From Sulfurovum sp. (GTDB taxonomy: Bacteria > Campylobacterota > Campylobacteria > Campylobacterales > Sulfurovaceae), in the NCBI GenBank assembly GCA_026983515.1, contig JALWHT010000118.1, positions 1 through 48,339 on the forward strand: a stretch of 48,339 nt of DNA, given 5' to 3'. Positions 18,156-35,709 of this stretch are shown one piece after another. The notes under the pieces are model-generated. The model saw only the letters and a list, made by a program, of their open reading frames with translations. It did not search any database and was not told the DNA's origin. The number at the start of each line of letters is the position of its first letter. Position 1 is the first letter of the stretch. Both the position numbers and the translations under genes were made by a program.

Positions 18156-19787
18156 TTAAAAAAAGAGCAACTGAATGATATTCAGAATAAACATTGTAAT
18201 AAATCCTACTTTATAGACCATCATCTCATTACGCTCAATAAATGAAGTGTGGCGGTCAAAGTAGGGCTGTACTTTGTCAGGGTTGTCAATTTCATAAAGC
18301 ATTTCCGAATAGTTGTGGTAGCGCTTGTCCGGCTCAGTCTCGATGGCACGCAGAATCACACTCTCCAGCCAGTGCGGTATCTTCGGGTTGAGCTTACTCG
18401 GATGCTTGGCATCTTTCTCGAAACTCGGAGTCTGGAACGGTTCTATTTCTCCAAACGGGAACTTCTGTGTCAATGCCTCGTAAAGTGTCACTCCTATGGC
18501 GTAAATCTCTGTCTGCTCGGTAATCGGTGCCTGTTTGAAACGCTCCGGTGCAAGATAGGAAGGTGTTCCCGCCCGTGTTACTGTGGAGTAGGCTTCGGTA
18601 ATGCTGCCAAAATCAACCATTTTGAAAACAATCTTCTCTTTTCGTTTTGTCACAATGATATTTTCAGGCTTAATATCACCGTGTACCAGGTTGAACTTAA
18701 TGAGGTACTGCGACATCTTCAGTAAAAAGTGCGCCAGCTCCACCCCAAGGTCAACACTCAGTGGCTTTTTGGAAATATACTCTTTAAGGGAAACTCCCTC
18801 GATATAACGCATAATATAGTAACGGTGTGTCCGCTTTTTTGGAATGACCGCTTTTGGGAAAAAGCCGGCCTTTAAACGATTGGCCATCCAAACCTCTTTC
18901 ACAAAAAGATCCAGCATCACCTCATCGTCAATCGCTTCATGGGGTGCAAATTTAATCACATACTGCACCCCTTTCTTCTCACACAGCCAGGTTCTGTTGT
19001 TCTGTATCAACGGTTTGATAAGACGATAACCGTCTATCTCTTCACCCTTTTTATAGTGTTCCTGTATGATAAGGTCTGTTTGTTTAAGCTTCAATCTGGG
19101 ATCAAGCTCCTTTACCTCGATAACCACAGCAGTGGTATCGTCAGGCAGGTCATCGTTGTGCTTTTTGCTTGCTTTTTTCACCAGAAACGAAGCACCTACT
19201 TTGATACCATCGGCAAGTTCTTCGGAGGAAAGTTCATTGTATAGCCCGTCACTGCAGAGCAGAATGCAGTCTCCTGCCTGCAAATTGTTCTCGAAGTAGT
19301 ATGGTTCGACACTCTCTTCAAGCCCAATGGCTGCTGTCAGTACATTCTCCATCCCCTCCTCATCCATCGCATGATCGGAGGAGAGCTGAGCAAACTGTCC
19401 GTTACGAGAGAGGTAAATACGGCTGTCACCTACATTGGCACCATAAAGCCTGTCCCCTTCTATGACCACAAGTGTCAGAGTCGTCACCAGCTCCTGCCGT
19501 TCATACTGCTCCATCGACTCAAGGTAGAGTACCCGGTTGATATTCTCAATAAAGTGGCGAATGGATTTCTCCATACTCCAGCTTCTCGGACGGTTCTTCA
19601 GTGACTGCACCAGAAACTGCGCGGTACGCTTTGCTGCTTCGGCACCATGCATAGAAGAGCCAACTCCATCACAGACTACCGCAACAGTAATGTTCTCCAT
19701 CACTTTGACTTCAAAATAATCATCACCTTTAAGCTGAGTACCTTTGGCCAGCGTAAAGCCGCTGGTTTCAATATTTTCTTTAGACAT
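18156..19787 (-). CDS. Bifunctional PP2C-type phosphatase / Ser-Thr protein kinase, C-terminal TM
   Basis: PP2C: VVCDGVGSSMHGAEAAKRTAQ, GDSRIYL, DCILLCSDGLYNELS; kinase: HGDIKPENIIVT, MVDFGSITEAY, GTPSYLAPERF; terminal hydrophobic GFITMFILNIIQLLFF. Confidence 0.95.
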   Translation of the reverse strand: MSKENIETSGFTLAKGTQLKGDDYFEVKVMENITVAVVCDGVGSSMHGAEAAKRTAQFLVQSLKNRPRSWSMEKSIRHFIENINRVLYLESMEQYERQELVTTLTLVVIEGDRLYGANVGDSRIYLSRNGQFAQLSSDHAMDEEGMENVLTAAIGLEESVEPYYFENNLQAGDCILLCSDGLYNELSSEELADGIKVGASFLVKKASKKHNDDLPDDTTAVVIEVKELDPRLKLKQTDLIIQEHYKKGEEIDGYRLIKPLIQNNRTWLCEKKGVQYVIKFAPHEAIDDEVMLDLFVKEVWMANRLKAGFFPKAVIPKKRTHRYYIMRYIEGVSLKEYISKKPLSVDLGVELAHFLLKMSQYLIKFNLVHGDIKPENIIVTKRKEKIVFKMVDFGSITEAYSTVTRAGTPSYLAPERFKQAPITEQTEIYAIGVTLYEALTQKFPFGEIEPFQTPSFEKDAKHPSKLNPKIPHWLESVILRAIETEPDKRYHNYSEMLYEIDNPDKVQPYFDRHTSFIERNEMMVYKVGFITMFILNIIQLLFF

Positions 19788-20258: not shown

Positions 20259-21539
20259 CTATATGATCCCCCCTGCATTGGCACCCCAGGTAGTTCTCCA
20301 ACGGGTTTTAACAAGAGAGATGGCACCGATGGCGATGAGCACAAGTCCTGCAAAGATGAAGAAACCGACACTGTAGCTGTCAAATGTCCCTTTCGCCCAG
20401 CCAAGTGTTTTGACAAGGAACGTACCGCCGATCCCGCCGGCTGCACCGATGAGTCCTGTCATAATACCGATATCTTTACCAAAACGCTGCGGTACGAGCT
20501 GGAAAACTGCACCGTTTGCCATTCCAAGATTGGCCATGATCAAAAAGAGTACACCAATGGCAACCCAGAACGGAAGCTGTACCGCACCGCTGAGCGCCAC
20601 CAGTGCAGCAACAACACCAAAAAAGATGTAAAGTGCTTTGACCCCACCCATTTTGTCGGCAATACCACCGCCTACAGGACGCAACACTGCACCGGCAAAG
20701 ATGGTAAGGGCTCCAAAGTAACCGGCAATGACCTTGACATTCGGTTCATGGAAAACACTCAATCCAAAAGCACTCATATCTGCCTGATACGTATTCATCA
20801 GGTAGACTTTCATATAGTTCGCAAACCCTACAAATCCGCCGAAGCTGACAGCATAAAAGAGCATAAACCACCAACTGTCACGGTCTTTAAGCAGCTTCCA
20901 GTAATCACCCAGTTTTTTGGGACGCGGCTTGTAAACCGATTCAGGTGCATCTTTTGCCATTAAAATATAAATGATCAACACGATGAATGAGAGCAATCCT
21001 CCAACAAGGAATACTGCTTCCCATCCCCAAATTTCTGCGATTTTAGGTGCAAAAAGGAAGTCAACGACTACACCAATATTCCCCGCACCGGCAATACCGA
21101 GTACAATCCCTTGAAGCTTGGGTGGATACCATTGTCCTGCCTGCGGCAGTGCCACTGCAAAGGATGCACCGGCAAAACCAAGCCCAAGTGCAACAACCAG
21201 CAACTCATTATAGGTAATGCTCTCTCCCCTTGAATACGCGTAGAAAAGTGATGCAATCACGATAACCTGTGCAATAATGGCAGTTTTCTTCGGTCCAATC
21301 TTATCGACACCAAAACCAAGTACAATACGCAGCAGTGCTCCTGCCAAAATCGGGATAGAAAGCAAGGTTGCAATCTGTCCTGCACTCAATGCTGTACCGT
21401 GATGGGCCAGTGATTCATTAATCTCGGTTGCCAAAGGCCCGAGCATCGTCCATACCATAAAACTGAAATCAAAGTAGAGAAATGCCGCAAAAAGTGTCTT
21501 TGCATCTCCCTGTCCCTTAAGCGCCTTGAAGTTCGCCAT
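20259..21539 (-). CDS. NarK/NasA-type MFS nitrate/nitrite transporter
   Basis: 426 aa, about 12 TM; RIVLGFGVDKIGPKKTAI and GFAGASFAVALPQAGQWYPPKLQG..GIAGAGNIG motifs of nitrate/nitrite porters. Confidence 0.93.
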   Translation of the reverse strand: MANFKALKGQGDAKTLFAAFLYFDFSFMVWTMLGPLATEINESLAHHGTALSAGQIATLLSIPILAGALLRIVLGFGVDKIGPKKTAIIAQVIVIASLFYAYSRGESITYNELLVVALGLGFAGASFAVALPQAGQWYPPKLQGIVLGIAGAGNIGVVVDFLFAPKIAEIWGWEAVFLVGGLLSFIVLIIYILMAKDAPESVYKPRPKKLGDYWKLLKDRDSWWFMLFYAVSFGGFVGFANYMKVYLMNTYQADMSAFGLSVFHEPNVKVIAGYFGALTIFAGAVLRPVGGGIADKMGGVKALYIFFGVVAALVALSGAVQLPFWVAIGVLFLIMANLGMANGAVFQLVPQRFGKDIGIMTGLIGAAGGIGGTFLVKTLGWAKGTFDSYSVGFFIFAGLVLIAIGAISLVKTRWRTTWGANAGGII

Positions 21540-21568: not shown

Positions 21569-21574
21569 ATTATA
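21569..21574 (-). promoter_or_regulatory. -10-like TATAAT for the nitrate transporter gene
   Basis: Reverse complement ACAGTATAATTCG upstream of RBS AAGGAG and ATG 21539. Confidence 0.6.
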
Positions 21575-21606
21575 CTGTAACGTTATGGCGTTTATTACCT
21601 TCATAT

Positions 21607-21623
21607 TGATTAATTTTTAATCA
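21607..21623. promoter_or_regulatory. Site A: 17-bp palindrome TGATTA-ATTTT-TAATCA
   Basis: Perfect 6-5-6 inverted repeat matching sites B, C and D. Confidence 0.85.
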
Positions 21624-21684
21624 TATATATTTACCTGTTAACATGGGGAACTCATAGGCTGAATGCTTGTACAGATCAATAAAT

Positions 21685-21701
21685 TGATTATTTTTTAATC
21701 A
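21685..21701. promoter_or_regulatory. Site B: 17-bp palindrome TGATTA-TTTTT-TAATCA
   Basis: Perfect 6-5-6 inverted repeat; reverse complement is identical to the core of sites C and D. Confidence 0.88.
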
Positions 21702-21734
21702 TACTTTTATCTGCAACTCTGCATCCGTTTTGGA

Positions 21735-21740
21735 TATAAT
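21735..21740 (+). promoter_or_regulatory. -10-like TATAAT for the nitrite reductase operon
   Basis: TTTTGGATATAATGACAC; weak -35. Confidence 0.6.
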
Positions 21741-21778
21741 GACACAGATTGAATAACGACAGGAGCAGCGTGATTATA

Positions 21779-23698
21779 ATGGAAGCATTAGCAAAAGCCA
21801 AAGAGGCAAGAAGCAAAAAGCTCAATAAAGTAGAAACGACCAAAGCACTCAAAGACCCAATGGAGATTTACAAGCATCTTGAATCAATTGCTGCAGCAGG
21901 CTACGAAGGACTAAGTAAAGAGGATTCCGCTTACTTTTTGAAGTGTTTCGGACTCTTTGACAAGGGTGAAGACTTTATGTTACGTGTGCGTATCCCCGGT
22001 GGGCAGCTGACCAACGCACAGGCGGTACGCATCGGTGAAGTAGCACAGGAGTACGGCAATGACTACATCGATATTACCACCCGTATGCAGGTGGAGCTGC
22101 GCTATTTGCAGATCGCAGACATTGCAAAGGTACTCAAGGCGCTTAAAGAGGTAGGCATCTCCACATTCCAGACGGGGGTGGATAACCCGCGAAACATCGT
22201 CACCGACCCACTTGACGGCATTGCTTATGACAACATCATCGAGTCTATGCCCATCTTGACGCAGCTTCAGGAGATTTTCCTCGAAAATCCCGAGTGGATC
22301 TCTGCCCTGCCGAGAAAATTTAATACCGGTATCCTGGGAAGCCTCAGCAACTCCTGCAATATCTTCGGGCATGACTGCAACTTCGTACTCGCCAACAAAG
22401 ACGGCAGCTTCGGCTTCAACGTCTATCTTGGTGCCCGTGTCGGTGTGCAGGCGCGTGATGCCGACCTCTTCGTTACTCCCGAAGAGGTACCCGTATTCTT
22501 TAAAGCGCTGCTGAACGTTTTCAAAACCTACGGCTACCGTGACAACCGGAACAAGAACCGCCTGCACTTCCTACTGCAGGATGTGGGCATCCCCGCGTTT
22601 ATAGAAGCGGTCAAAGAGGAGGCCGAACTCTCCTTTGCCCAAGGCGGCATGACACTGGTACAGTCACAAAACATCGCACTGGGTGCCAACCGCGTACTGC
22701 TTAAAAACGGCACCTACGCCTACAAGGTCATCGTCCCCTCAGGAATCTTCAGCGGTACAGACATGATCGCAGCGGCAAAAGCGGCACAGAGCTACGGCAG
22801 CGGCGACATCCGTCTCACCTACGACCAGAACCTTTTCATCATCAACATTGACAAAGAGAAGCTTGATACCTTTGAGAACAATCCGATCATTGCCAAGTAT
22901 GCCCAGTACAACAACCTCTACTTTCAAGATATGATCGCCTGTGCGGGGACACAGACCTGCAGCTACGGTGTTATCCCCAACAAACCTGATGCCATCGAGA
23001 TGGCGCACTTTCTTAACTCCGAAGTGCCCATCGCCAATGCCAACATACGCATGAACTGGTCAGCATGCCCCAAAGGGTGCGGAGTACACGGCATAGCCGA
23101 CATCGGCTTTGAGGGGTGCAAGGCAAAAGATGCTGACGGCAACCGTGTGGACGGGGTACACCTCTTTATGGGCGGCAAGATCACCCGGCAAGCCAAAGAG
23201 GCGCACATTTTACACAAGGCACTGCCGATCGACGAAGCCAAGCACCACGTCAAGTACCTGCTGAAAACCTACGCGGCATACAAAGAGCGCGGAGAGACCT
23301 TTGAGAGTTTTGAGACACGCTTTTTCAGTAAAAACTATAGCTATCAGGCGATCGGATTCTTTACCAAGATCAACTACATCCTCCGCGATAAACTGGGGCT
23401 GGATATAATGTTCGAACTTGACAAAGAGCCCAAAAGCGGACGCCGTGAGGAGTACGAACTCTTCACCTTCGGACTCAAACTCTTCAAACTCCTCACAGGA
23501 GAGAAGCGTTTTGCAGCTGTCACAGGACTCGCCCCAACCCTTGCACGTCCAAGAAAGATCAAACGGGATGAAGTCACCAGACTCAACCCGAAAGTCCCAC
23601 CAAAACTCTCTGAAGTCATCTACAACATGACGCATGAGAACAAAAGTGAGCGGGCGCAGGTCTTCTCGGAGTTGCTTGTGGCACTTAAAGAGGTGTAA
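21779..23698 (+). CDS. nirA: Ferredoxin-type nitrite (nitrite/sulfite) reductase
   Basis: Siroheme/4Fe-4S motif ACAGTQTCSYG ... NWSACPKGCGVHGIADIGFEGCK; start either 21779 (MEALAKAKEAR) or a nearby GTG. Confidence 0.88.
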   Translation: MEALAKAKEARSKKLNKVETTKALKDPMEIYKHLESIAAAGYEGLSKEDSAYFLKCFGLFDKGEDFMLRVRIPGGQLTNAQAVRIGEVAQEYGNDYIDITTRMQVELRYLQIADIAKVLKALKEVGISTFQTGVDNPRNIVTDPLDGIAYDNIIESMPILTQLQEIFLENPEWISALPRKFNTGILGSLSNSCNIFGHDCNFVLANKDGSFGFNVYLGARVGVQARDADLFVTPEEVPVFFKALLNVFKTYGYRDNRNKNRLHFLLQDVGIPAFIEAVKEEAELSFAQGGMTLVQSQNIALGANRVLLKNGTYAYKVIVPSGIFSGTDMIAAAKAAQSYGSGDIRLTYDQNLFIINIDKEKLDTFENNPIIAKYAQYNNLYFQDMIACAGTQTCSYGVIPNKPDAIEMAHFLNSEVPIANANIRMNWSACPKGCGVHGIADIGFEGCKAKDADGNRVDGVHLFMGGKITRQAKEAHILHKALPIDEAKHHVKYLLKTYAAYKERGETFESFETRFFSKNYSYQAIGFFTKINYILRDKLGLDIMFELDKEPKSGRREEYELFTFGLKLFKLLTGEKRFAAVTGLAPTLARPRKIKRDEVTRLNPKVPPKLSEVIYNMTHENKSERAQVFSELLVALKEV

Positions 23699-23720
23699 CA
23701 ATGATATATCACATAGTATC

Positions 23721-23844
23721 CGTAGGGTGTTGTCCCCTGACAACACTAACACGCTATACCCAAACGAAACATGCTATGATACAACGATATTCAACACAAA
23801 CAGAAATTCAAAGTTTCGGTGTTGTGAGGGCACAACACCCTACG
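23721..23844. repeat. BIME/MITE-like inverted repeat element
   Basis: CGTAGGGTGTTGTCCCCTGACAACAC...GTGTTGTGAGGGCACAACACCCTACG: about 26-bp terminal inverted repeats with 2 mismatches, each arm also a hairpin. Confidence 0.8.
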
Positions 23845-23873
23845 CAAAACCAAATAAAAGCAGGTAAATAATT

Positions 23874-25481
23874 ATGGCAGTGGAACCATTAAGTAAACAC
23901 ACACCATTAGAGAGCTTCATCAACCATAAAAACGATACCGGTATGCAGTGCGGTAACTACACCATCGACATCCCCGAGCTCAAACCGGGTGAACAGTACC
24001 GTTTCCACTTCGATGCTACCGCCTGTGTGGGCTGTCACTGCTGTGAGGTGGCGTGTAACGAGCAAAACGCCAACCCAGACGACATTAAATGGCGCCGTGT
24101 GGGGGAGATGGAGACCGGCACCTTCCCGGACACACTCCAGCTTTTCAACTCGATGAGCTGTAACCACTGCATCGACCCCGAGTGTCTACGCGGCTGCCCA
24201 ACTGAGAGCTACATCAAACTTGACAACGGCATTGTCTGGCACGATGACCCAAGCTGTATCGGGTGCCAGTACTGTACATGGAACTGTCCCTACGAGGTGC
24301 CTGTCTTCAACCCTGACCGCGGCATCGTCACCAAGTGTCATATGTGTGTGGACAAACTTGAAGCGGGTCAGACCCCTGCATGTGTGCAGGCATGCCCCGG
24401 TGGTGCCATCGAAATAGAAGCAGTCAATGTAGAGCAGTGGCTGGCAGAAGATATGGCAAAAGAGGGAGTCGCTCCCCATCTGCCAGACATCGAAATCACC
24501 AAGCCCACCACACGCTACACCCTGCCTGATCTTCCCGAAGGTCAGGAGGTACGCCCGGCAGACGAGCACATCCTCAAGCCTGCCCATGCCGAACTGCCGC
24601 TTGTCTTTATGACAGTACTCACACAGGTTTCGGTAGGGGCATTTCTGGCACTCTTTTTGGGACAGCTGCTCTACTCGCTTGGCTTCAACCTGCCAAAACC
24701 AAATCTCGTGATGGCGATTTTGGCATTCCTGCCTGCAGCCATAGGGCTACCGCTTTCAGCCATGCACCTTGGACGACCGGGTAAAGCGATGAGTGCAATG
24801 AAAAACTGGAAAACCTCATGGCTCAGCCGTGAAGCGATCGCTTTAGGTGCCTACACCGGACTGGCAACACTTACTGCCGGACTCTACTTTCTCAATGTCG
24901 GCGGTGCCCTTCTGCTGCTGCTTGAAGCGCTCACCCTTGGTATCGGACTCTACGGTATCTACGCACAGTCGATGATCTACCGCATTAAAGCACGTCCGAG
25001 CTGGAACCGCAAGAGTACCACCAAACGCTTCTTCGGTTCAGGCTATGTCGGCTTCCTGCTCATCGCCACCGCCCTGCTTGCAAGCAACGGCGCACAGGGT
25101 GCTACGGTACTGCTTGCCGTTACCCTGCTTGCCGGCATGGGGCAGGCACTGGTGATCTTTGAGGAGGTGATGTTCTACCGCCACCTCGACAAAGAAGACC
25201 CGCTCTACTACCAGTACAACCGAAGCCGCATCCTGCTGCAAGAACACTTTGGCAGCATCAAGAAGTTTAGAGTCTATTCATTGGCAGCCTTTGGGCTGGC
25301 ACTGCCACTGCTTGCCATCCTCTTTACCGCCAGCGCTCTGACAGGTTTGGCGATAGCCACACTTGTAGTTGCCACACTCGGTGCTTTGGCATCTGAACTT
25401 GCCGGACGATACCTCTTCTACCGCACCGTGGTACCATTGGGACTTGCAGGGAACTTCTTTGCGGGGAACCAGAGACATTGA
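23874..25481 (+). CDS. Fusion of four-cluster Fe-S ferredoxin subunit (DmsB/NrfC-like) and DmsC-type membrane anchor
   Basis: CVGCHCCEVACNEQ, CNHCIDPECLRGCP, CIGCQYCTWNCPYEVP, CHMCVDKLEAGQTPACVQACP, then about 8 TM DmsC-like region. Confidence 0.93.
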   Translation: MAVEPLSKHTPLESFINHKNDTGMQCGNYTIDIPELKPGEQYRFHFDATACVGCHCCEVACNEQNANPDDIKWRRVGEMETGTFPDTLQLFNSMSCNHCIDPECLRGCPTESYIKLDNGIVWHDDPSCIGCQYCTWNCPYEVPVFNPDRGIVTKCHMCVDKLEAGQTPACVQACPGGAIEIEAVNVEQWLAEDMAKEGVAPHLPDIEITKPTTRYTLPDLPEGQEVRPADEHILKPAHAELPLVFMTVLTQVSVGAFLALFLGQLLYSLGFNLPKPNLVMAILAFLPAAIGLPLSAMHLGRPGKAMSAMKNWKTSWLSREAIALGAYTGLATLTAGLYFLNVGGALLLLLEALTLGIGLYGIYAQSMIYRIKARPSWNRKSTTKRFFGSGYVGFLLIATALLASNGAQGATVLLAVTLLAGMGQALVIFEEVMFYRHLDKEDPLYYQYNRSRILLQEHFGSIKKFRVYSLAAFGLALPLLAILFTASALTGLAIATLVVATLGALASELAGRYLFYRTVVPLGLAGNFFAGNQRH

Positions 25482-25521
25482 TGTCAGGGAGTATGTGGTA
25501 GGGAGCAGGGAGCATTTCGGT

Positions 25522-25584
25522 AGCGTTCAGTGATGAGCGCTGAGCGCTGAGCGTTTAGTGTTTAGCGTTAAGAGAACAGCGTGT
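25522..25584. repeat. Heptanucleotide tandem array, 9 in-phase units of AGCGYTK-type
   Basis: AGCGTTC AGTGATG AGCGCTG AGCGCTG AGCGTTT AGTGTTT AGCGTTA AGAGAAC AGCGTGT. Confidence 0.8.
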
Positions 25585-25822
25585 TTTCTTAATATTGAAC
25601 ATTGATTATGTAACTTCCGTTGTCACTTCTGCACTCTTTGTGCAGATGCTGTTGCGCCCATATGTGCGAAGCACGGCGCATAAAGCATCGCCCGCACAAT
25701 TGCAGAAGTGACGCTTTTTGCCTACTTTTTCTAAAAAAGTAGGAAAGAGACACAAAACGGTAATGTATGATTGAACTATCATAGGGGTATCTCTTGTGGC
25801 TACCCTCAATATGGAGAATAAT

Positions 25823-28138
25823 ATGAATCTCATAGACAAAGCAAAAAACTTTCTCGGTCTTGATATCAAAGCGGACAAATACGCCCTCGTCGACGACCCC
25901 ATCTTCGGCAAAGTCGCCAAAGCCAAAGCCCCTGACAAGTGGGTACGTAGCACCTGCGGCTACTGTGGTGTAGGTTGCGGCATGTACATCGGTGTTAAAA
26001 ACGGCGAAGCAGTCTACTCCAAAGGTGACTCTCTTCATCCGGTCAACATGGGTACACTCTGCCCCAAAGGATTAAGCGAGCATAGAATGGTACGTGCCGA
26101 CAATCGAATACCTACACCAATGCTCAAAACAAACGGTACGCTTCAGCCTGTTTCATGGGATGAGGCATTCAGCCATACCGCAGAAGAATTCAAACGTATT
26201 CAACAACAGCACGGCAAAGGTGCGGTTGCCGTGGTCTCTACTGGTCAACTACTAACAGAAGAGTTCTATGCGCTGGGCAAGTTTGTGCAGCTTGGGCTTG
26301 AAACAAACAACTATGATGGCAATACCACACTCTGTATGGCAAGTGCCGTCATGGGATACAAACAAACCTTTGGCTCAGATGGTCCTACCGGATGTTATGA
26401 GGACTTTGAAAAAGCAGACGTCATCATGCTTATTGGTGCTAATATTGCCGACAACCACCCTATTTTGAAACTGCATATTGCCAAAAACAAAAAAACCACA
26501 GGGAAAAAACCGACCATTATTGTTGTTGACCCCAGAAAATCCAAAACAGCACAGATGGCAGACATCTTCGTACCGCTCAAACCACGTTCAGATTTGGCGC
26601 TCATCAACGGATTGTGCTACATCATCATGGAACAGGGATGGGAAGATGAAAACTTCATCAAAGAGCGCACCAACGGCTACAGAGAGTTCAAAAAGCACAT
26701 CATGGAGAACTACCCGCCACAAGAGGTTGCTCACATCACCGGCATCGATGTCAAGGAGCTTTACAACCTTGCACGCATTTACGCCGGTGCGGATGCAGTA
26801 ATGAGTGCCTGGACCATGGGGGTCAACCAGAGTTCCATTGGTACCGATACGGTCTCTGCCATCTGTAACCTTGCACTCATCACCGGCAACCTTGGCAAAG
26901 AGGGCGCTTCACCTATGTCCATCACCGGACAGTGCAACGCCATGGGTACACGCGAGTTTGGCTTTACCTCATCCATCCCCGGATACCGCAACTACGCCAG
27001 TGAAAGTGACAGAAGAGAGTTTGCCAAGATCATCGGTGTATCCGAAGAGCTCATCCCCACTGCAAGAGGCTACGCCTACCCGCAGATCATCGATGCGATC
27101 AACCGCGGCGAGATCAAAGCGCTCTGGGTTGTTGCCACCAATCCACTGGTAAGCTACCCTGATCAAAACGGACTTAGAGAAGCACTCAAAAAACTTGACA
27201 TGCTTGTGGTACAGGATGCCTTCATGTCCGATACGGCACAAATAGCCGATGTGGTCTTCGCCGCAGCGACATGGAGCGAAAAAGAGGGTTGCTACACCAA
27301 CAGTGAGCGCCGCTGCAACTATGCCAAAAAAGCCATAGAACCCCTTGAAGATAGCAAGGCAGACTTCTACATTGTCAAAGAGTTCTCCAAATATTTCGGC
27401 GACAAACACGACCTGCTCTTCAAAAATCTCAATACCCCACGAGATACTTTCGAGGAGATCAAACGCGTCAGCAAAGGCAGACTCTGCGACTACAGCGGTA
27501 TGAGCTACGAACTCATTGAGGAGCTTGGCGGCATCCAATGGCCATGCAACGACAAAGCCCCCAAAGGCACCAAACGCCTCTACACAGAAGATATGCCATG
27601 CCCTACCCCTGACGGCAAAGCACAACTGCTTCCCGTAGAGTGGGTACCACTGAGTGAAATGCAGTGTAAAGGACTGCCGCTGATGCTTAACACCGGACGA
27701 ACAGTAGAACAGTTCCATACCCGTACCAAAACCGGTACCATCGGCATCCTCGATGCACTGGCTCCTGAAGCATGGGTAGACATCAGCCCCAAAGATGCCG
27801 CCAAACTCAAAGTCAAAAGCGGAGAGCGCATTGCCATTTCCGGAAACCGCGGGCGTGTGGAGGATGTCATCGTCAAAGTAAGTGAAACGGTAAGAGAAGG
27901 CAATATCTTCGTACCGTTCCACTTCAACGAACAGCTTATCAATGCCGTTACTATCCCCGAGTTCGACCCCAAATCATTCGAGCCAAACTACAAACAGTGT
28001 GCCGTGCAGCTACACTCCGAAGCGGTACCCGAAGGCATCGTCTATGAAGAGCTGGAAATCAGCGGCTATCTGGAGAATGTAAAAGTATACAAAGAGGAAG
28101 AGACGGCACAAAACGATATGTCCGTGGCAGAGGCGTAA
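25823..28138 (+). CDS. nasA: Assimilatory-type nitrate reductase catalytic subunit (molybdopterin oxidoreductase)
   Basis: WVRSTCGYCGVGCGMYIGV 4Fe-4S motif, NTTLCMASAVMGYKQTFGSDGP, AMGTREFG; no Tat signal; GGAG RBS before ATG 25823. Confidence 0.9.
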   Translation: MNLIDKAKNFLGLDIKADKYALVDDPIFGKVAKAKAPDKWVRSTCGYCGVGCGMYIGVKNGEAVYSKGDSLHPVNMGTLCPKGLSEHRMVRADNRIPTPMLKTNGTLQPVSWDEAFSHTAEEFKRIQQQHGKGAVAVVSTGQLLTEEFYALGKFVQLGLETNNYDGNTTLCMASAVMGYKQTFGSDGPTGCYEDFEKADVIMLIGANIADNHPILKLHIAKNKKTTGKKPTIIVVDPRKSKTAQMADIFVPLKPRSDLALINGLCYIIMEQGWEDENFIKERTNGYREFKKHIMENYPPQEVAHITGIDVKELYNLARIYAGADAVMSAWTMGVNQSSIGTDTVSAICNLALITGNLGKEGASPMSITGQCNAMGTREFGFTSSIPGYRNYASESDRREFAKIIGVSEELIPTARGYAYPQIIDAINRGEIKALWVVATNPLVSYPDQNGLREALKKLDMLVVQDAFMSDTAQIADVVFAAATWSEKEGCYTNSERRCNYAKKAIEPLEDSKADFYIVKEFSKYFGDKHDLLFKNLNTPRDTFEEIKRVSKGRLCDYSGMSYELIEELGGIQWPCNDKAPKGTKRLYTEDMPCPTPDGKAQLLPVEWVPLSEMQCKGLPLMLNTGRTVEQFHTRTKTGTIGILDALAPEAWVDISPKDAAKLKVKSGERIAISGNRGRVEDVIVKVSETVREGNIFVPFHFNEQLINAVTIPEFDPKSFEPNYKQCAVQLHSEAVPEGIVYEELEISGYLENVKVYKEEETAQNDMSVAEA

Positions 28139-28188
28139 AAATAGCACCAAGTGTGCTATAATGCCGTACTTTTTTCAAGGAAACCGCC

Positions 28189-29655
28189 GTGGCAGAAAAC
28201 ATTGTCAAAACACAGAAATTCATCCTCAAACTTTTTCCGGAGATTATGGTCAAAGGCGCATCAGCAAAGAAGCAGATGGTCAACCAGCTCTATCAGAACC
28301 TCCTCACCCTCTTAAAACCGATTGATGATGCAATAGAGATCAAAAAATTTTCTGACAAGATTGAAGTGGTCACCCCCATTGAAAAGGTTGATACGGTACG
28401 AGAAATACTTCTGAACACACCAGGTATCGAACAGGTACTTGAGGCGCTACAGTTCGACAAAACCGATACTCTTGAAGCCATTAAAGAGAAGGTTGCACAA
28501 ACGGTTGCCAAAGAGATAGCAGGTAAAAGCTTTGTTGTACGTGCCAAGCGTACCGGCACCCACCCTTTCAACTCTTCCGAAATGGAACGGGTCGTCGGCG
28601 GTTACACGCTGGCACATACTGATGCAAAAAAAGTCGACCTGCACAATCCTGAGGTAACGGTACGCATCGAACTGATCAACCAGCAGCTCAATATCATCAC
28701 TGCCAAGTATGAAGGCCTGAGCGGGTTCCCCATTGGTACACAGGGGGACATCCTCTCTCTGATGTCCGGGGGGTTTGACTCTACCGTAGCAAGTTTTTTG
28801 ACAATGAAGCGCGGTATCAAAACACATTTTATCTTTTTCAATCTTGGCGGTGCTGCACATGAGATCGGGGTAAAGCAGGTAGCATGGTATCTTTGGAGCA
28901 AATTTGGCGCTTCCCACCGTGTCAAGTTTGTTACTATTCCCTTTGAAGATGTCGTTACTGAAATCTTTCGCTCTACACACGAAAGCTATATGGGGGTTAC
29001 CCTCAAGCGGCTGATGCTCATGGCTGCCGAGAAAATTGCCGATAATATGGAGATAGATGCCCTACTCACAGGCGAAAGTGTCGCACAGGTCTCCAGCCAG
29101 ACACTGCGAAACCTTGCACTCATTGACCAGGCAACCGACAAACTGGTACTTCGCCCCCTTGCTACTGTCAATAAACCGGAAATTATCCGTATCGCCACAC
29201 AGATCGGTACACGCCGCTTTGCGGAGAATATGCCTGAATACTGCGGTGTCATTTCCAAAAATCCCATCACACACGGCTCCTTCAAACGTATGGAGCGCGA
29301 AGCCAAACGTTTTGATTATAGCGTTCTTGATAACGCTGTAGCAAATGCCAAGACGATTTATGTTGATGAAATTGTTGAAGATATTACCGACAATGCCCCT
29401 ATTGAAATCGTTACTGCCCCTAACCCGGAGTGCGATGTTATCATCGATATCCGAGCGGATGAAAAGACGGTAGAGTCCCCCTGTGAAACCATTAAGATCC
29501 CTTTTCACCAGCTCAAAACAGAATTTAAAAAACTGCCTAAAGAAAAGAACTACCTACTCTATTGTAACAAAGGTGTACTAAGCCAGCTTCATGCACAATA
29601 TCTTAAAGATGCAGAAGATGCCAATGTGAAAGTGTATAGACCGGAAAACATGTAG
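28189..29655 (+). CDS. thiI: tRNA 4-thiouridine synthase ThiI with C-terminal rhodanese domain
   Basis: THUMP domain, LSLMSGGFDSTVASF PP-loop, rhodanese LLYCNKGVLS; GTG start. Confidence 0.95.
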   Translation: MAENIVKTQKFILKLFPEIMVKGASAKKQMVNQLYQNLLTLLKPIDDAIEIKKFSDKIEVVTPIEKVDTVREILLNTPGIEQVLEALQFDKTDTLEAIKEKVAQTVAKEIAGKSFVVRAKRTGTHPFNSSEMERVVGGYTLAHTDAKKVDLHNPEVTVRIELINQQLNIITAKYEGLSGFPIGTQGDILSLMSGGFDSTVASFLTMKRGIKTHFIFFNLGGAAHEIGVKQVAWYLWSKFGASHRVKFVTIPFEDVVTEIFRSTHESYMGVTLKRLMLMAAEKIADNMEIDALLTGESVAQVSSQTLRNLALIDQATDKLVLRPLATVNKPEIIRIATQIGTRRFAENMPEYCGVISKNPITHGSFKRMEREAKRFDYSVLDNAVANAKTIYVDEIVEDITDNAPIEIVTAPNPECDVIIDIRADEKTVESPCETIKIPFHQLKTEFKKLPKEKNYLLYCNKGVLSQLHAQYLKDAEDANVKVYRPENM

Positions 29656-29673
29656 GGTACGTAATCACGCACC
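29656..29673. repeat. REP-like palindrome GGTACGT-AATC-ACGCACC
   Basis: One mismatch between arms; related to 8934-8951. Confidence 0.5.
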
Positions 29674-29737
29674 GACAGTGAGTAAATTCTGCATTGTTTG
29701 ATTGAAACGAAGTTTAAAATTTCAGTCATTCCTACAC

Positions 29738-30631
29738 TTACTCACACAACTGTTTCAAATCATCCAGATCAAACAGCAGCAATGTCTCACTCTGCATTCC
29801 AAGCAACTCATTGGAAAATCCGTCTTTAGAGAAAAGTGCATAAATATCGGCATGAATTCCTGACTGTTCTGCTTTTGCTTTGAGTTTGTTCAGTTCGTTC
29901 TTACACACTTTTCGGTCTTTGTACTTGCACTCACCAAGAATGATTTTCTTCTCACTTGTGACAGCAAGAATATCGAATTCACTATGATGGTTCCAGTAAC
30001 TCCCCTGACTAAGCAGAGGACTGCGTGATTGAAAATAATCAACTAACAGATCATTACAGAGTTGTTCAAATACCAAGGTGCGAAGGCGCTCATAGTGTGC
30101 TTCGAAATAGGAAAAGAATGCTGTAGTATTGCCTTCCGACAACGCCTTTCTGTAAGGAAAGACAAACCCAAACCAGAAACGCAAAAAAGGCTGTTCAAAC
30201 CGTAATTTGTCCTGAATACGGTAATGGCGAAGCTCTTTTTTGAGTTTGTGTTTGGGATGCACTTTCAAGGGCTGTTCGCGGCTTGCTTCAATACGCAGGA
30301 TACCAAGAGAAATAAGTTCCGTAACAATTTTTCCTCCTATCTCCTCACTGAGTTTCGCTTTTCGCAGTACCGAATAGTATTTTCCATCCCCTTTAGCAAT
30401 AGCCTGCAACACATCACAATAAGGAGCTTCAAGCAAATATGAGGGCGTAACAACCGGCTGTAATTCTGCAAAATTCGTTATAAACTTAGAATGCAGCAAT
30501 GCCGTCATACTTTCGAAAAAATCCAGTTCAATCTTCTCTTCCGCTCCGCCAAGAACTGAAAAATACTCAATGGCACTCTCCAGAGGCAAATAGGGATGGT
30601 AATGACAAAAACGCTTAAATGCTTCTTTGAT
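29738..30631 (-). CDS. Stand-alone DUF234 / PD-(D/E)XK-like nuclease-fold protein
   Basis: EFDILAVTSEKKIILGECKYKDRK motif; track start is TTG 30589, but the coding-like frame extends upstream without a canonical start (5' end uncertain). Confidence 0.7.
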   Translation of the reverse strand: MKEAFKRFCHYHPYLPLESAIEYFSVLGGAEEKIELDFFESMTALLHSKFITNFAELQPVVTPSYLLEAPYCDVLQAIAKGDGKYYSVLRKAKLSEEIGGKIVTELISLGILRIEASREQPLKVHPKHKLKKELRHYRIQDKLRFEQPFLRFWFGFVFPYRKALSEGNTTAFFSYFEAHYERLRTLVFEQLCNDLLVDYFQSRSPLLSQGSYWNHHSEFDILAVTSEKKIILGECKYKDRKVCKNELNKLKAKAEQSGIHADIYALFSKDGFSNELLGMQSETLLLFDLDDLKQLCE

Positions 30632-30680
30632 GAGGCTGTTTCCTCTCTTGTTTTTTCTATATAGTTTAACATAAGTTTGA

Positions 30681-30686
30681 TATAAT
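30681..30686 (+). promoter_or_regulatory. -10-like TATAAT for the regulator pair
   Basis: GTTTGATATAATGG, 60 bp upstream of ATG 30746. Confidence 0.55.
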
Positions 30687-30701
30687 GGTTTTAAGCATTA
30701 G

Positions 30702-30718
30702 TGATTATTTTTTAAGCA
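30702..30718. promoter_or_regulatory. Site E: near-palindrome TGATTA-TTTTT-TAAGCA, one mismatch to sites A-D
   Basis: Lies between the -10 box and the start of the regulator gene; flanked by a direct repeat TTTTAAGCATTA at 30689 and 30710 (21-bp period). Confidence 0.65.
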
Positions 30719-30745
30719 TTATCAGGAAGGAACACTTCACTCTTT

Positions 30746-31480
30746 ATGGAAACATTTTATACAGATTCGCCGCAGGTTCAGCAAATTATTCAAGGATTGA
30801 ACCTGACCAGAACACTCTTTGTCTCTTCTATTGTCATAGGGGAACCCCATATTGGAAAGAAAACACTCGTGACACATCTCTTTCCCGATATTCCCGTTGT
30901 CTCAGGGAAAAATCAGGATGAAGTCGAAGCTATACTCGAACACTCTGACGAGCTGATCATTACCAATTTTGAAAAGCTTTCCAATAAAGAGAATCTCGTC
31001 TTCGACAACAAACGCATCATTGCCACAGCAGACTATATCGGTAACCAAAAGACTATCGACAGCTTATTTGCTTTTATCTATATGATGCCTACGTACAAAG
31101 AACGTCCTGAAGATCTCAAGCATCTTAAAACCCGTTTTCTTAAAGAGGCGGCAGCAACCTTGATGCTTGATGCATCATCCTACACACTTTCACAGCTTCC
31201 AACTGACCTGACACACAACAGCAAAAGTCTTAAACGTGCCATATACCATTACCTTATGAGCCGAAACATGAGTAAAAAAGAGATTGAAGAGACACTTTTT
31301 ACCTATTTTCTTGAACATCTTGAAGGCAACAACGGATACAAAGAGTATGTGGGAATGTATGAACGCCCACTAATCAAAGCTGGTCTAAAAAAGTATGGCT
31401 CACAGCTGAAACTCTCTGAAATTCTCGGCATCAACCGCAATACATTAAGGAAGAAAATCCATGAACACGCCATCGATTGA
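30746..31480 (+). CDS. Degenerate NtrC-like regulator: vestigial AAA+ domain without GAFTGA, C-terminal Fis-type HTH
   Basis: GEPHIGKKTL (P-loop-like), NKRIIATADYIG, YKERPEDLKHLKTRFL, C-terminal LKLSEILGINRNTLRKKIHEHAID; no receiver domain. Confidence 0.8.
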   Translation: METFYTDSPQVQQIIQGLNLTRTLFVSSIVIGEPHIGKKTLVTHLFPDIPVVSGKNQDEVEAILEHSDELIITNFEKLSNKENLVFDNKRIIATADYIGNQKTIDSLFAFIYMMPTYKERPEDLKHLKTRFLKEAAATLMLDASSYTLSQLPTDLTHNSKSLKRAIYHYLMSRNMSKKEIEETLFTYFLEHLEGNNGYKEYVGMYERPLIKAGLKKYGSQLKLSEILGINRNTLRKKIHEHAID

Positions 31481-32162
31481 TTTCCGCCCTTTTGTTGAAT
31501 GGGACAATAACCCCTTCATTCTTTTCGACCCAAAAGGAAAAATCCTCTACCTCAACAACAGTGCGGAGATCTTGCTTGGGTATGTTTCCAAGAAAGAGCT
31601 TTTCGATCTTGCACTTACCTACGCACCGCAAAATTTCGGCTATAAAACTACAAGTATTGCTCTGCGTTACGAAGCGTTCAATTTCTATTCTATCACGGTA
31701 GGATACGAAAACGAAGAGCAACTTGCCATACGTTTTTACAATGCTCCAAGACTCAGGAATCATACCCCTGTAGAAAAAGAGAAACTCACACTTACTGACA
31801 TTAACCTGCTACTTGAAGCCAATATTGCCCTGTTTAAAACAAAAAACAGCAATCCGCTGCAACTGTTGACCGATCCGGATATGCCACAGCTTAGAATCGA
31901 CCAGAACCGCTTTTCAAAACTGCTGCGTAAAGTACTCGAATCATTCCGCGCATCCGACTCCATACGCATTGAACTCAAACTCCTTGTCGGGGAGCATGTC
32001 ATTATCGATGAGCAAAAAATCTCCATTGCCCAGCTTTCTACTATGGCAAACGGACGCTATGTCGATCATGACAAGGAAATAAAAATACTTTCGGAAGAGT
32101 GCAATATCCGCAGTAACCTCCAAGAGTCCTCCATCAAACTTGAAATTCCACTGATTACATAG
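31461..32162 (+). CDS. Degenerate NtrB-like PAS sensor lacking a recognisable phospho-acceptor His box
   Basis: 20-bp overlap with the regulator gene; PAS FVEWDNNPFILFDPKGKILYLNNSAEILLGY; HATPase-like remnant SIRIELKLLVGEHVIIDEQKISI. Confidence 0.7.
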   Translation: MNTPSIDFRPFVEWDNNPFILFDPKGKILYLNNSAEILLGYVSKKELFDLALTYAPQNFGYKTTSIALRYEAFNFYSITVGYENEEQLAIRFYNAPRLRNHTPVEKEKLTLTDINLLLEANIALFKTKNSNPLQLLTDPDMPQLRIDQNRFSKLLRKVLESFRASDSIRIELKLLVGEHVIIDEQKISIAQLSTMANGRYVDHDKEIKILSEECNIRSNLQESSIKLEIPLIT

Positions 32163-32163
32163 A

Positions 32164-32182
32164 TTGATTAAAAAATAATCAA
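32164..32182. promoter_or_regulatory. Site C: palindrome TTGATTA-AAAAA-TAATCAA
   Basis: Perfect 7-5-7 inverted repeat upstream of the first amt gene. Confidence 0.88.
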
Positions 32183-32212
32183 CTTCTTTCTCTGTTTTCT
32201 TCTCCTGCGTGG

Positions 32213-32218
32213 TAAGAT
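32213..32218 (+). promoter_or_regulatory. Extended -10-like TGGTAAGAT for the first amt gene
   Basis: GCGTGGTAAGATAACC about 36 bp upstream of ATG 32254. Confidence 0.5.
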
Positions 32219-32253: not shown

Positions 32254-33561
32254 ATGAAGTTAAAACTTTTCGCTTTACTGGCAGCGTTTATGCCAATTGC
32301 TGCTTTTTCGGCAGACAAACTCGACTCGGGTGATACGGCGTGGATGATGATCTCAACCGCACTTGTTCTCCTTATGACACCGGCAGGACTGGCACTTTTC
32401 TATGCAGGCATGTCAAGAAGCAAGAATGCGCTTAATACCTATGCTATGGTTATGGGTGCTTTCGTTCTGGCATTTGTTGTCTGGATTGTTGCAGGATACT
32501 CTCTTGCATTTGGAACAGCAGGAAGTGCTTTCGTTCAGAAATTTATCGGTGGTTTCGGTAATATCCTTCTGAGCGAAACTAAATGGTCAGACCTTAGCGG
32601 TACCTACCCTGCGTATGTATTTGTTGCTTTCCAAGGTACATTTGCAGCTATTACCGTAGCAATTGCATCAGGTTCAGTCATCGGACGAATGAAGTTCTCC
32701 ACCTGGATGATTATCGTAGCGCTCTGGGGTCTCGTGGTCTATGCACCAATCACACACATGGTATGGGGTGGAGACGGTGCCCTACTCTTTGATGCCGGTG
32801 CGCTTGACTTTGCCGGTGGTACAGTTGTACATATGAACGGTGGTCTTGCAGGTCTGGTTCTTGCAATTCTTGTAGGAAAAAGAGTCGGCTACCCAAAAAC
32901 AGCCATGAAACCGTTTAGCATTATTCTTACTGCAGCAGGTGCTGCCCTGCTGTGGTTTGGTTGGTACGGATTCAACGGCGGTTCCGCATTCGGTGCAAAC
33001 AAAATTGCCGGTCTTGCAGTTTTAACGACGACTGTTGCAACTGCTGCAGCAGGTGTTACCTGGCTGCTGCTTGAGTGGGCTATCTTTAAAAAGCCTACCC
33101 TTCTTGGCATTGCATCGGGTATCATTGCCGGTCTGGTTGCCATCACACCTGCGGCAGGATTCGTGTCTGTAGGAGGATCATTCATCGTTGGTATCGGTGG
33201 TGCAATCATTGCATTCTTCGGTGTTGTTACGCTTAAGAAAAAACTCGGTTACGACGACTCACTGGATGCCTTTGGTATCCACTTCCTTGCAGGTCTGTGG
33301 GGTGCTCTTGTTACCGGCTTGCTTGCACTCAACGACAAAGATCTTCTCTGGGACGGCCCGCTTAAAGAGAGTGGAGACAGAATTGGACAATTCATGGTTC
33401 AGGTTCAGTCTGTTGTCGTTGTCGGCCTCTGGACACTGATCGGTACTGTTATTGTTTACTATATTGCAAGTGCCCTGACAGGTGGTGCAAGAGTAGCAAC
33501 AGAAGATGAAGAGATCGGACTTGACGAGTCTGTTCATGGAGAAAGAGGAGTGAACCTTTAA
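32254..33561 (+). CDS. amtB: Ammonium transporter (Amt family), with signal peptide
   Basis: 435 aa; DTAWMMISTALVLLMTPAGLALFYAGMSRSKN, FAGGTVVHMNGGLAGLV, DDSLDAFGIHFLAGLWGAL. Confidence 0.96.
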   Translation: MKLKLFALLAAFMPIAAFSADKLDSGDTAWMMISTALVLLMTPAGLALFYAGMSRSKNALNTYAMVMGAFVLAFVVWIVAGYSLAFGTAGSAFVQKFIGGFGNILLSETKWSDLSGTYPAYVFVAFQGTFAAITVAIASGSVIGRMKFSTWMIIVALWGLVVYAPITHMVWGGDGALLFDAGALDFAGGTVVHMNGGLAGLVLAILVGKRVGYPKTAMKPFSIILTAAGAALLWFGWYGFNGGSAFGANKIAGLAVLTTTVATAAAGVTWLLLEWAIFKKPTLLGIASGIIAGLVAITPAAGFVSVGGSFIVGIGGAIIAFFGVVTLKKKLGYDDSLDAFGIHFLAGLWGALVTGLLALNDKDLLWDGPLKESGDRIGQFMVQVQSVVVVGLWTLIGTVIVYYIASALTGGARVATEDEEIGLDESVHGERGVNL

Positions 33562-33594: not shown

Positions 33595-33939
<345 letters not shown>

Positions 33940-34035: not shown

Positions 34036-34054
34036 TTGATTAAAAAATAATCAA
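34036..34054. promoter_or_regulatory. Site D: palindrome TTGATTA-AAAAA-TAATCAA
   Basis: Identical 19 bp to site C, upstream of the second amt gene. Confidence 0.85.

Positions 34055-34174: not shown

Positions 34175-35709
<1,535 letters not shown>

Follow-up and report, generated by a model that had tools for sequence, protein, structure and literature searches.

Nitrogen genes and their palindromic sites

The window analysed here is a 48,339-nucleotide stretch of a Sulfurovum sp. genome (contig JALWHT010000118.1; the source genome is 1.85 Mb and 92.5% complete) that holds a cluster of nitrogen genes. A narK-like nitrate/nitrite transporter gene on the minus strand (20259–21539; TIGR00886, E 3.7e-72, below its cut-off) is followed by nirA, which is ferredoxin–nitrite reductase-like (21749–23698), a gene for an Fe-S/DmsC-like electron transfer subunit (23874–25481) and nasC, encoding a molybdopterin oxidoreductase of the assimilatory nitrate reductase-like type (25796–28138). 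Further along are the overlapping genes of an NtrC-like regulator (30746–31480) and an NtrB-like partner (31461–32162), then the ammonium transporter gene amt1 (32254–33561) with a glnK/PII gene (33598–33939), and a second transporter gene, amt2 (34175–35347), with a second glnK/PII gene (35368–35709). All of these genes except narK lie on the plus strand.

The promoters of the cluster carry a short palindrome, GATTA-N5-TAATC, which we treat as a candidate operator. Perfect copies stand before narK (operator A, GATTAATTTTTAATC, minus strand, 21608–21622, centre 21615; conserved in relatives), nirA (operator B, plus strand, 21686–21700, centre 21693) and amt1 (operator C, plus strand, 32166–32180, centre 32173), and at all three the full form is of the TGATTA-N5-TAATCA type. 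A further perfect palindrome, operator D, is found upstream of amt2 (plus strand, 34038–34052), and the promoter of the regulator gene holds a copy with one mismatch, operator R (plus strand, 30703–30717). The operators of the narK–nirA pair remain about 76–79 base pairs (bp) apart in relatives.

These palindromes exceed chance. The genome has six perfect copies, four of them A–D in the window, against none of the reversed pattern, which served as the chance control; in a survey of 53 genomes of the genus, the counts were 289 and 56. When up to two mismatches were allowed, the excess was absent from the window, so the signal is confined to perfect sites. One of the six, at C49:2258 (GATTATAGTATAATC), was set aside as probably a promoter, because it contains TATAAT just upstream of an open reading frame (ORF), has G/C in its centre and recurs in genus g3. 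A reading of A–D as FNR/CRP boxes was also ruled out, since their TTGAT/ATCAA half-sites are 9 bp apart rather than 4.

What kind of protein might recognize such a site? In a profile of 115 sites, G/C at ±7 is found in all 115 and T/A at ±8 in 114, with T-A steps at ±(3–4) and an A/T centre. The determinants of a high-affinity Fis site are G/C at ±7, T at ±8, a pyrimidine–purine step at ±(3–4) and an A/T centre (PMC4784862). Thus, the operator profile matches the Fis consensus: G-N13-C, a pyrimidine–purine step at 3–4 and an A/T centre.

Spacing between operator and −10 box

The distance from the palindrome centre to the first base of the −10 box is 41 bp at narK (TATAAT, 21574–21569, minus strand), 42 bp at nirA (TATAAT, 21735–21740, plus strand) and 40 bp at amt1 (TAAGAT, 32213–32218, plus strand, preceded by TGG as in an extended −10). 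An earlier, sequence-only reading had given these same three distances, and our re-measurement returned identical values. It had also placed the operator near −52; if +1 is placed 12 bases past the start of the −10 box, operators A–C fall at −52 to −54.

The fixed spacing proved not only correct but understated. From relatives, we extracted the narK, nirA and amt1 promoters and removed near-duplicates before counting. A −10-like hexamer at 40–42 bp was present in 22/22 narK, 16/19 nirA and 22/23 amt1 promoters, or 60 of 64 combined, compared with mean counts of 4.4, 2.1 and 1.9, respectively, in other 3-bp windows. Most positions of the spacer between operator and −10 box are only ~25–50% identical among the promoters, and common descent of the entire stretch therefore does not account for the constant distance. 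The same arrangement extends to distant Campylobacteria. In 26 genomes of the class that belong to other families, and with no more than one operator mismatch allowed, all 12 operator-bearing amt promoters (6 families) have a −10-like hexamer at 40–42 bp, which none of 5000 shuffles matched; most of the 12 also carry TG before the −10 box, as amt1 does.

Control by sigma54 was considered and rejected. RpoN was not found in this genome at its 92.5% completeness, and a search of the genome for enhancer-binding proteins returned only weak AAA+ family hits, the best of them at least lying in a ClpB-like ORF, with no clear enhancer-binding protein among them. Matches to the −24/−12 motif in the window were at chance level and none fell at A–C, in agreement with the sequence-only reading, which had seen no such element at these promoters. 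That reading had further described activator-dependent sigma70 promoters, arguing in part from the missing −35 hexamer. The description is supported by the cross-family spacing, by the lack of RpoN here and by the genomes that hold the regulator without a detected RpoN (below), but the argument from the −35 is weak. Promoters of C. jejuni show a periodic A/T pattern and an extended −10 in ~89% of cases, and lack of a −35 is normal for them (PMC3656092); its absence is usual for sigma70 promoters of the class and is, on its own, no sign of activator dependence. Our data thus support sigma70 rather than sigma54 promoters with an operator near −52, at which the bound protein would act as an activator.

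A truncated NtrC-like protein and its partner

The NtrC-like regulator is a protein of 244 amino acids that consists of a degenerate AAA+ remnant and a C-terminal Fis-type helix-turn-helix (HTH; PF02954, PF18024). A profile of 27 homologues matched Fis over residues 174–243 (E 3e-9) and pieces of enhancer-binding-protein AAA+ domains over 4–50 and 81–171. The structural model (predicted local distance difference test score, pLDDT, 92) has a fold resembling AAA+ proteins, including enhancer-binding proteins. The receiver domain is missing, the protein starting directly with the AAA+ remnant. Among 79 homologues, neither GAFTGA nor the Walker B DE was found in any (0/79 each), and a Walker A of the form GxxxxGK[ST] with S/T occurs in only one, nearly all others having lysine or another residue there. 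From the list of features that define NtrC proper, the AAA+ fold and the Fis-type HTH are therefore present, whereas GAFTGA, a working AAA+ site, the receiver and RpoN are not. What the sequences suggest instead is a GAFTGA-less relative of NtrC with candidate operators at fixed sites of sigma70-type promoters.

The recognition helix, NRNTLRKK, is near-identical to that of Fis, NRGTLRKK, and includes the equivalents of Asn84 and Arg85; the motif NR[NVI]TLRKK is kept in 79/79 homologues. In Fis, Arg85 contacts the G at ±7 and Asn84 discriminates against one of the bases at ±4 (PMC4784862).

The regulator gene adjoins amt1/glnK and bears its own operator. Its −10 box (TATAAT, 30681–30686, plus strand) lies upstream of operator R, whose centre is 29 bp downstream of the first −10 base, and the distance is ~29–31 bp in most relatives that have operator R. 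A position downstream of the −10 is suited to autorepression, and the arrangement suggests that the regulator may repress its own gene. The stretch TAGTTTAACATA at 30660–30686, just upstream of this −10, is strongly conserved among relatives. Genomes of the Sulfurimonas and Sulfurospirillum types have the NtrC-like gene at a locus separate from amt, flanked by a slyD-like gene on one side and fabD on the other (L124:9950–10741; L132:9887–10750), and in many of these genomes the NtrB-like gene is located elsewhere.

The NtrB-like partner has a PAS domain, seen as a weak N-terminal match, and a dead histidine-kinase catalytic domain. The structural model of the partner (pLDDT 83) matches the catalytic domains of histidine kinases, NtrB among them (1r62; template modelling score 0.64 by target length). 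No conserved histidine was found among its homologues; the N..[DN]NA, D.G.G and G.G.G boxes occur in 0/50 of them and an H-box-like pattern in 2/50. Consequently, the partner does not have the H, N, G1 and G2 boxes that mark an NtrB histidine kinase.

In a survey of 200 genomes of the class, the NtrC-like and NtrB-like proteins were found in the same 55 genomes, even where the two genes lie apart. Thirteen genomes, this one and 12 others, hold the pair without a detected RpoN, and this persistence argues that the pair is independent of sigma54. One genome, G130, seemingly has the operators and no regulator, but its contig stops within nasC, short of where the regulator would be expected, and the absence is probably an assembly gap.

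Probable nitrogen control without sigma54: proposed mechanism and alternatives

We consider it probable that the palindromes are the operators of the truncated NtrC-like protein and that they serve sigma54-independent nitrogen control at sigma70 promoters. Going by the match between helix and site, the Fis-type HTH dimer of the 30746–31480 protein would bind TGATTA-N5-TAATCA centred near −53. The position of the site points to activation, and the gene content to nitrogen as the signal: the bound regulator would activate the sigma70 polymerase at narK, the nirA-nas operon and amt1 under nitrogen shortage, with the fixed 40–42 bp, about four helical turns, setting the contact between regulator and polymerase. 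Most likely, the spacing has been kept across several families of sulfur-oxidising Campylobacterota so that the shrunken NtrC-like protein can switch these genes on without sigma54. At its own promoter, where the operator lies at about +18, binding should repress and so close a negative loop. Both PII proteins of the cluster retain Tyr46 and Tyr51. The state of PII (GlnK) is probably passed on through binding, not phosphorylation, by the NtrB-like partner, which has neither a phospho-histidine nor motifs for binding ATP.

Several observations weigh against this interpretation. The Walker A of the regulator is itself degenerate, with K replacing S/T. The modelled step from PII to the NtrB-like protein draws on gene neighbourhood and fold only. 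Among the distant genomes that hold the regulator, 11 of 23 amt loci have no recognizable operator. Finally, the operators of amt2 (site D) and of a COX2-like operon stand at different distances from the −10.

Could the same protein bind the same sites and act the opposite way, repressing the nitrogen genes and being released when ammonium is scarce? The regulator's own operator, in a repressing position downstream of the −10, fits such a role. At narK, nirA and amt1, however, the operator at about −53 is outside the region where it would block the polymerase, and repression from upstream would not need a distance held within 2 bp across families. We therefore regard general repression as unlikely.

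It is also quite improbable that another regulator, a separate Fis-like or palindrome-binding protein, occupies the sites and that the NtrC-like protein is a mere neighbour. The location of the Sulfurimonas-type gene in the slyD–fabD region, away from amt, would fit this reading, but the palindrome fits the consensus of Fis, a recognition helix like that of Fis is present in the linked protein, the promoter of that protein carries a site, and genome G055, which gave no regulator hit, has one palindrome compared with a genus average of about five. Hardly credible is a protein-free role in which an AT-rich UP element or DNA curvature aids sigma70 directly: the site is A/T-rich, and in promoters of Campylobacterota a periodic upstream A/T pattern takes the place of the −35 (PMC3656092), but the entire dyad is invariant, G and C at ±7 included, as fits protein recognition, and perfect sites are rare in the genome.

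Taking the NtrC-like protein as the activator, we tentatively propose a broader model, to which we give somewhat less than even weight. A class-wide nitrogen switch may work without phosphorylation, nucleotide hydrolysis or sigma54, running from PII through an NtrB-like pseudokinase to a receiver-less, GAFTGA-less NtrC remnant that binds a fixed Fis-type site at −53, activates the sigma70 polymerase from there and represses itself. A degenerate NtrBC pair would then not have been lost but rewired, and because it did not depend on sigma54, RpoN could have vanished from whole lineages while nitrogen control was kept.

GAFTGA-less NtrC proteins at sigma70 promoters are known from Rhodobacter capsulatus and Caulobacter (PMC10274813 and the references it gives). 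Like them, the protein described here has no sigma54-contacting loop, is linked to nitrogen assimilation and, as we infer, acts at sigma70 promoters. Those proteins, on the other hand, still have a phosphorylated receiver, work with a genuine NtrB and bind ATP through their AAA+ domain, whereas the present one has lost the receiver, Walker B and a standard Walker A, and its partner is devoid of kinase motifs; in the passages of that source consulted, we found no description of a fixed −53 architecture. As far as this comparison reaches, the far deeper reduction, the pseudokinase partner and the conserved promoter geometry set the present system apart. With Fis, the regulator shares the HTH, the recognition helix and the DNA consensus (PMC4784862), but Fis is a 98-residue nucleoid protein, whereas the regulator also contains an AAA+ remnant, and its sites in any one genome are very few. 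The partner resembles E. coli NtrB (NRII) in its catalytic-domain fold (1r62) and PAS-like N-terminus and differs in lacking the N, G1 and G2 boxes as well as a conserved histidine. TyrR is a relative of enhancer-binding proteins that acts at sigma70 promoters, and the HTH of a TyrR homologue (1g2h) gave a weak profile match to the regulator (E 0.094); TyrR differs in its aromatic amino acid ligand, its operator and its other N-terminal domains.

Free-living Campylobacterota play a major part in fixing carbon and consuming nitrate, both at vents and in sulfidic sediments. In the literature searched, from which most subscription journals were absent, we found no description of nitrogen-regulated transcription in these bacteria, nor any previous account of the system presented here. 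For such control, the present results supply an operator, a promoter geometry and a regulator that can be tested. They also provide a natural case in which an NtrC-type protein has apparently moved from sigma54 to sigma70, so that the way such proteins contact the housekeeping polymerase becomes directly testable.

The two exceptional loci have features of their own. The amt2 operator is kept ~126–139 bp before amt2 in most relatives, and its distance to the −10 is diffuse; the 40–42 bp spacing, absent at operator D, was not found as a fixed feature in relatives either (7/15). In several relatives, an inverted repeat resembling TTGCT..AGCAA lies ~50 bp downstream of the amt2 operator. The fifth perfect operator of the genome (L002:1501–1515, contig C46) is upstream of a COX2/COX1-like operon, possibly nitric oxide reductase-like, and 60 bp from the best −10. 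It is followed by a TTGAC-N4-ATCAA box of CRP/FNR type; among 12 COX2-like loci, about half have an operator-like site and several an FNR-type box, and the layout suggests that the operon may be under dual control.

Other features of the window were noted in passing. An ORF at 29738–30589, divergent from and upstream of the regulator gene, had no NCBIfam match and is conserved at this position in most members of the genus. The nirA product exceeds ferredoxin–nitrite reductase models in length, and its residues 571–648 weakly match Ser/Thr kinase models (E 0.003–0.01). An inverted repeat, GTAGGGTGTTGT ... ACAACACCCTAC, lies within 23710–23850, between the nirA and Fe-S subunit genes, and a gene for a PP2C phosphatase–kinase fusion lies near narK (18156–19787).

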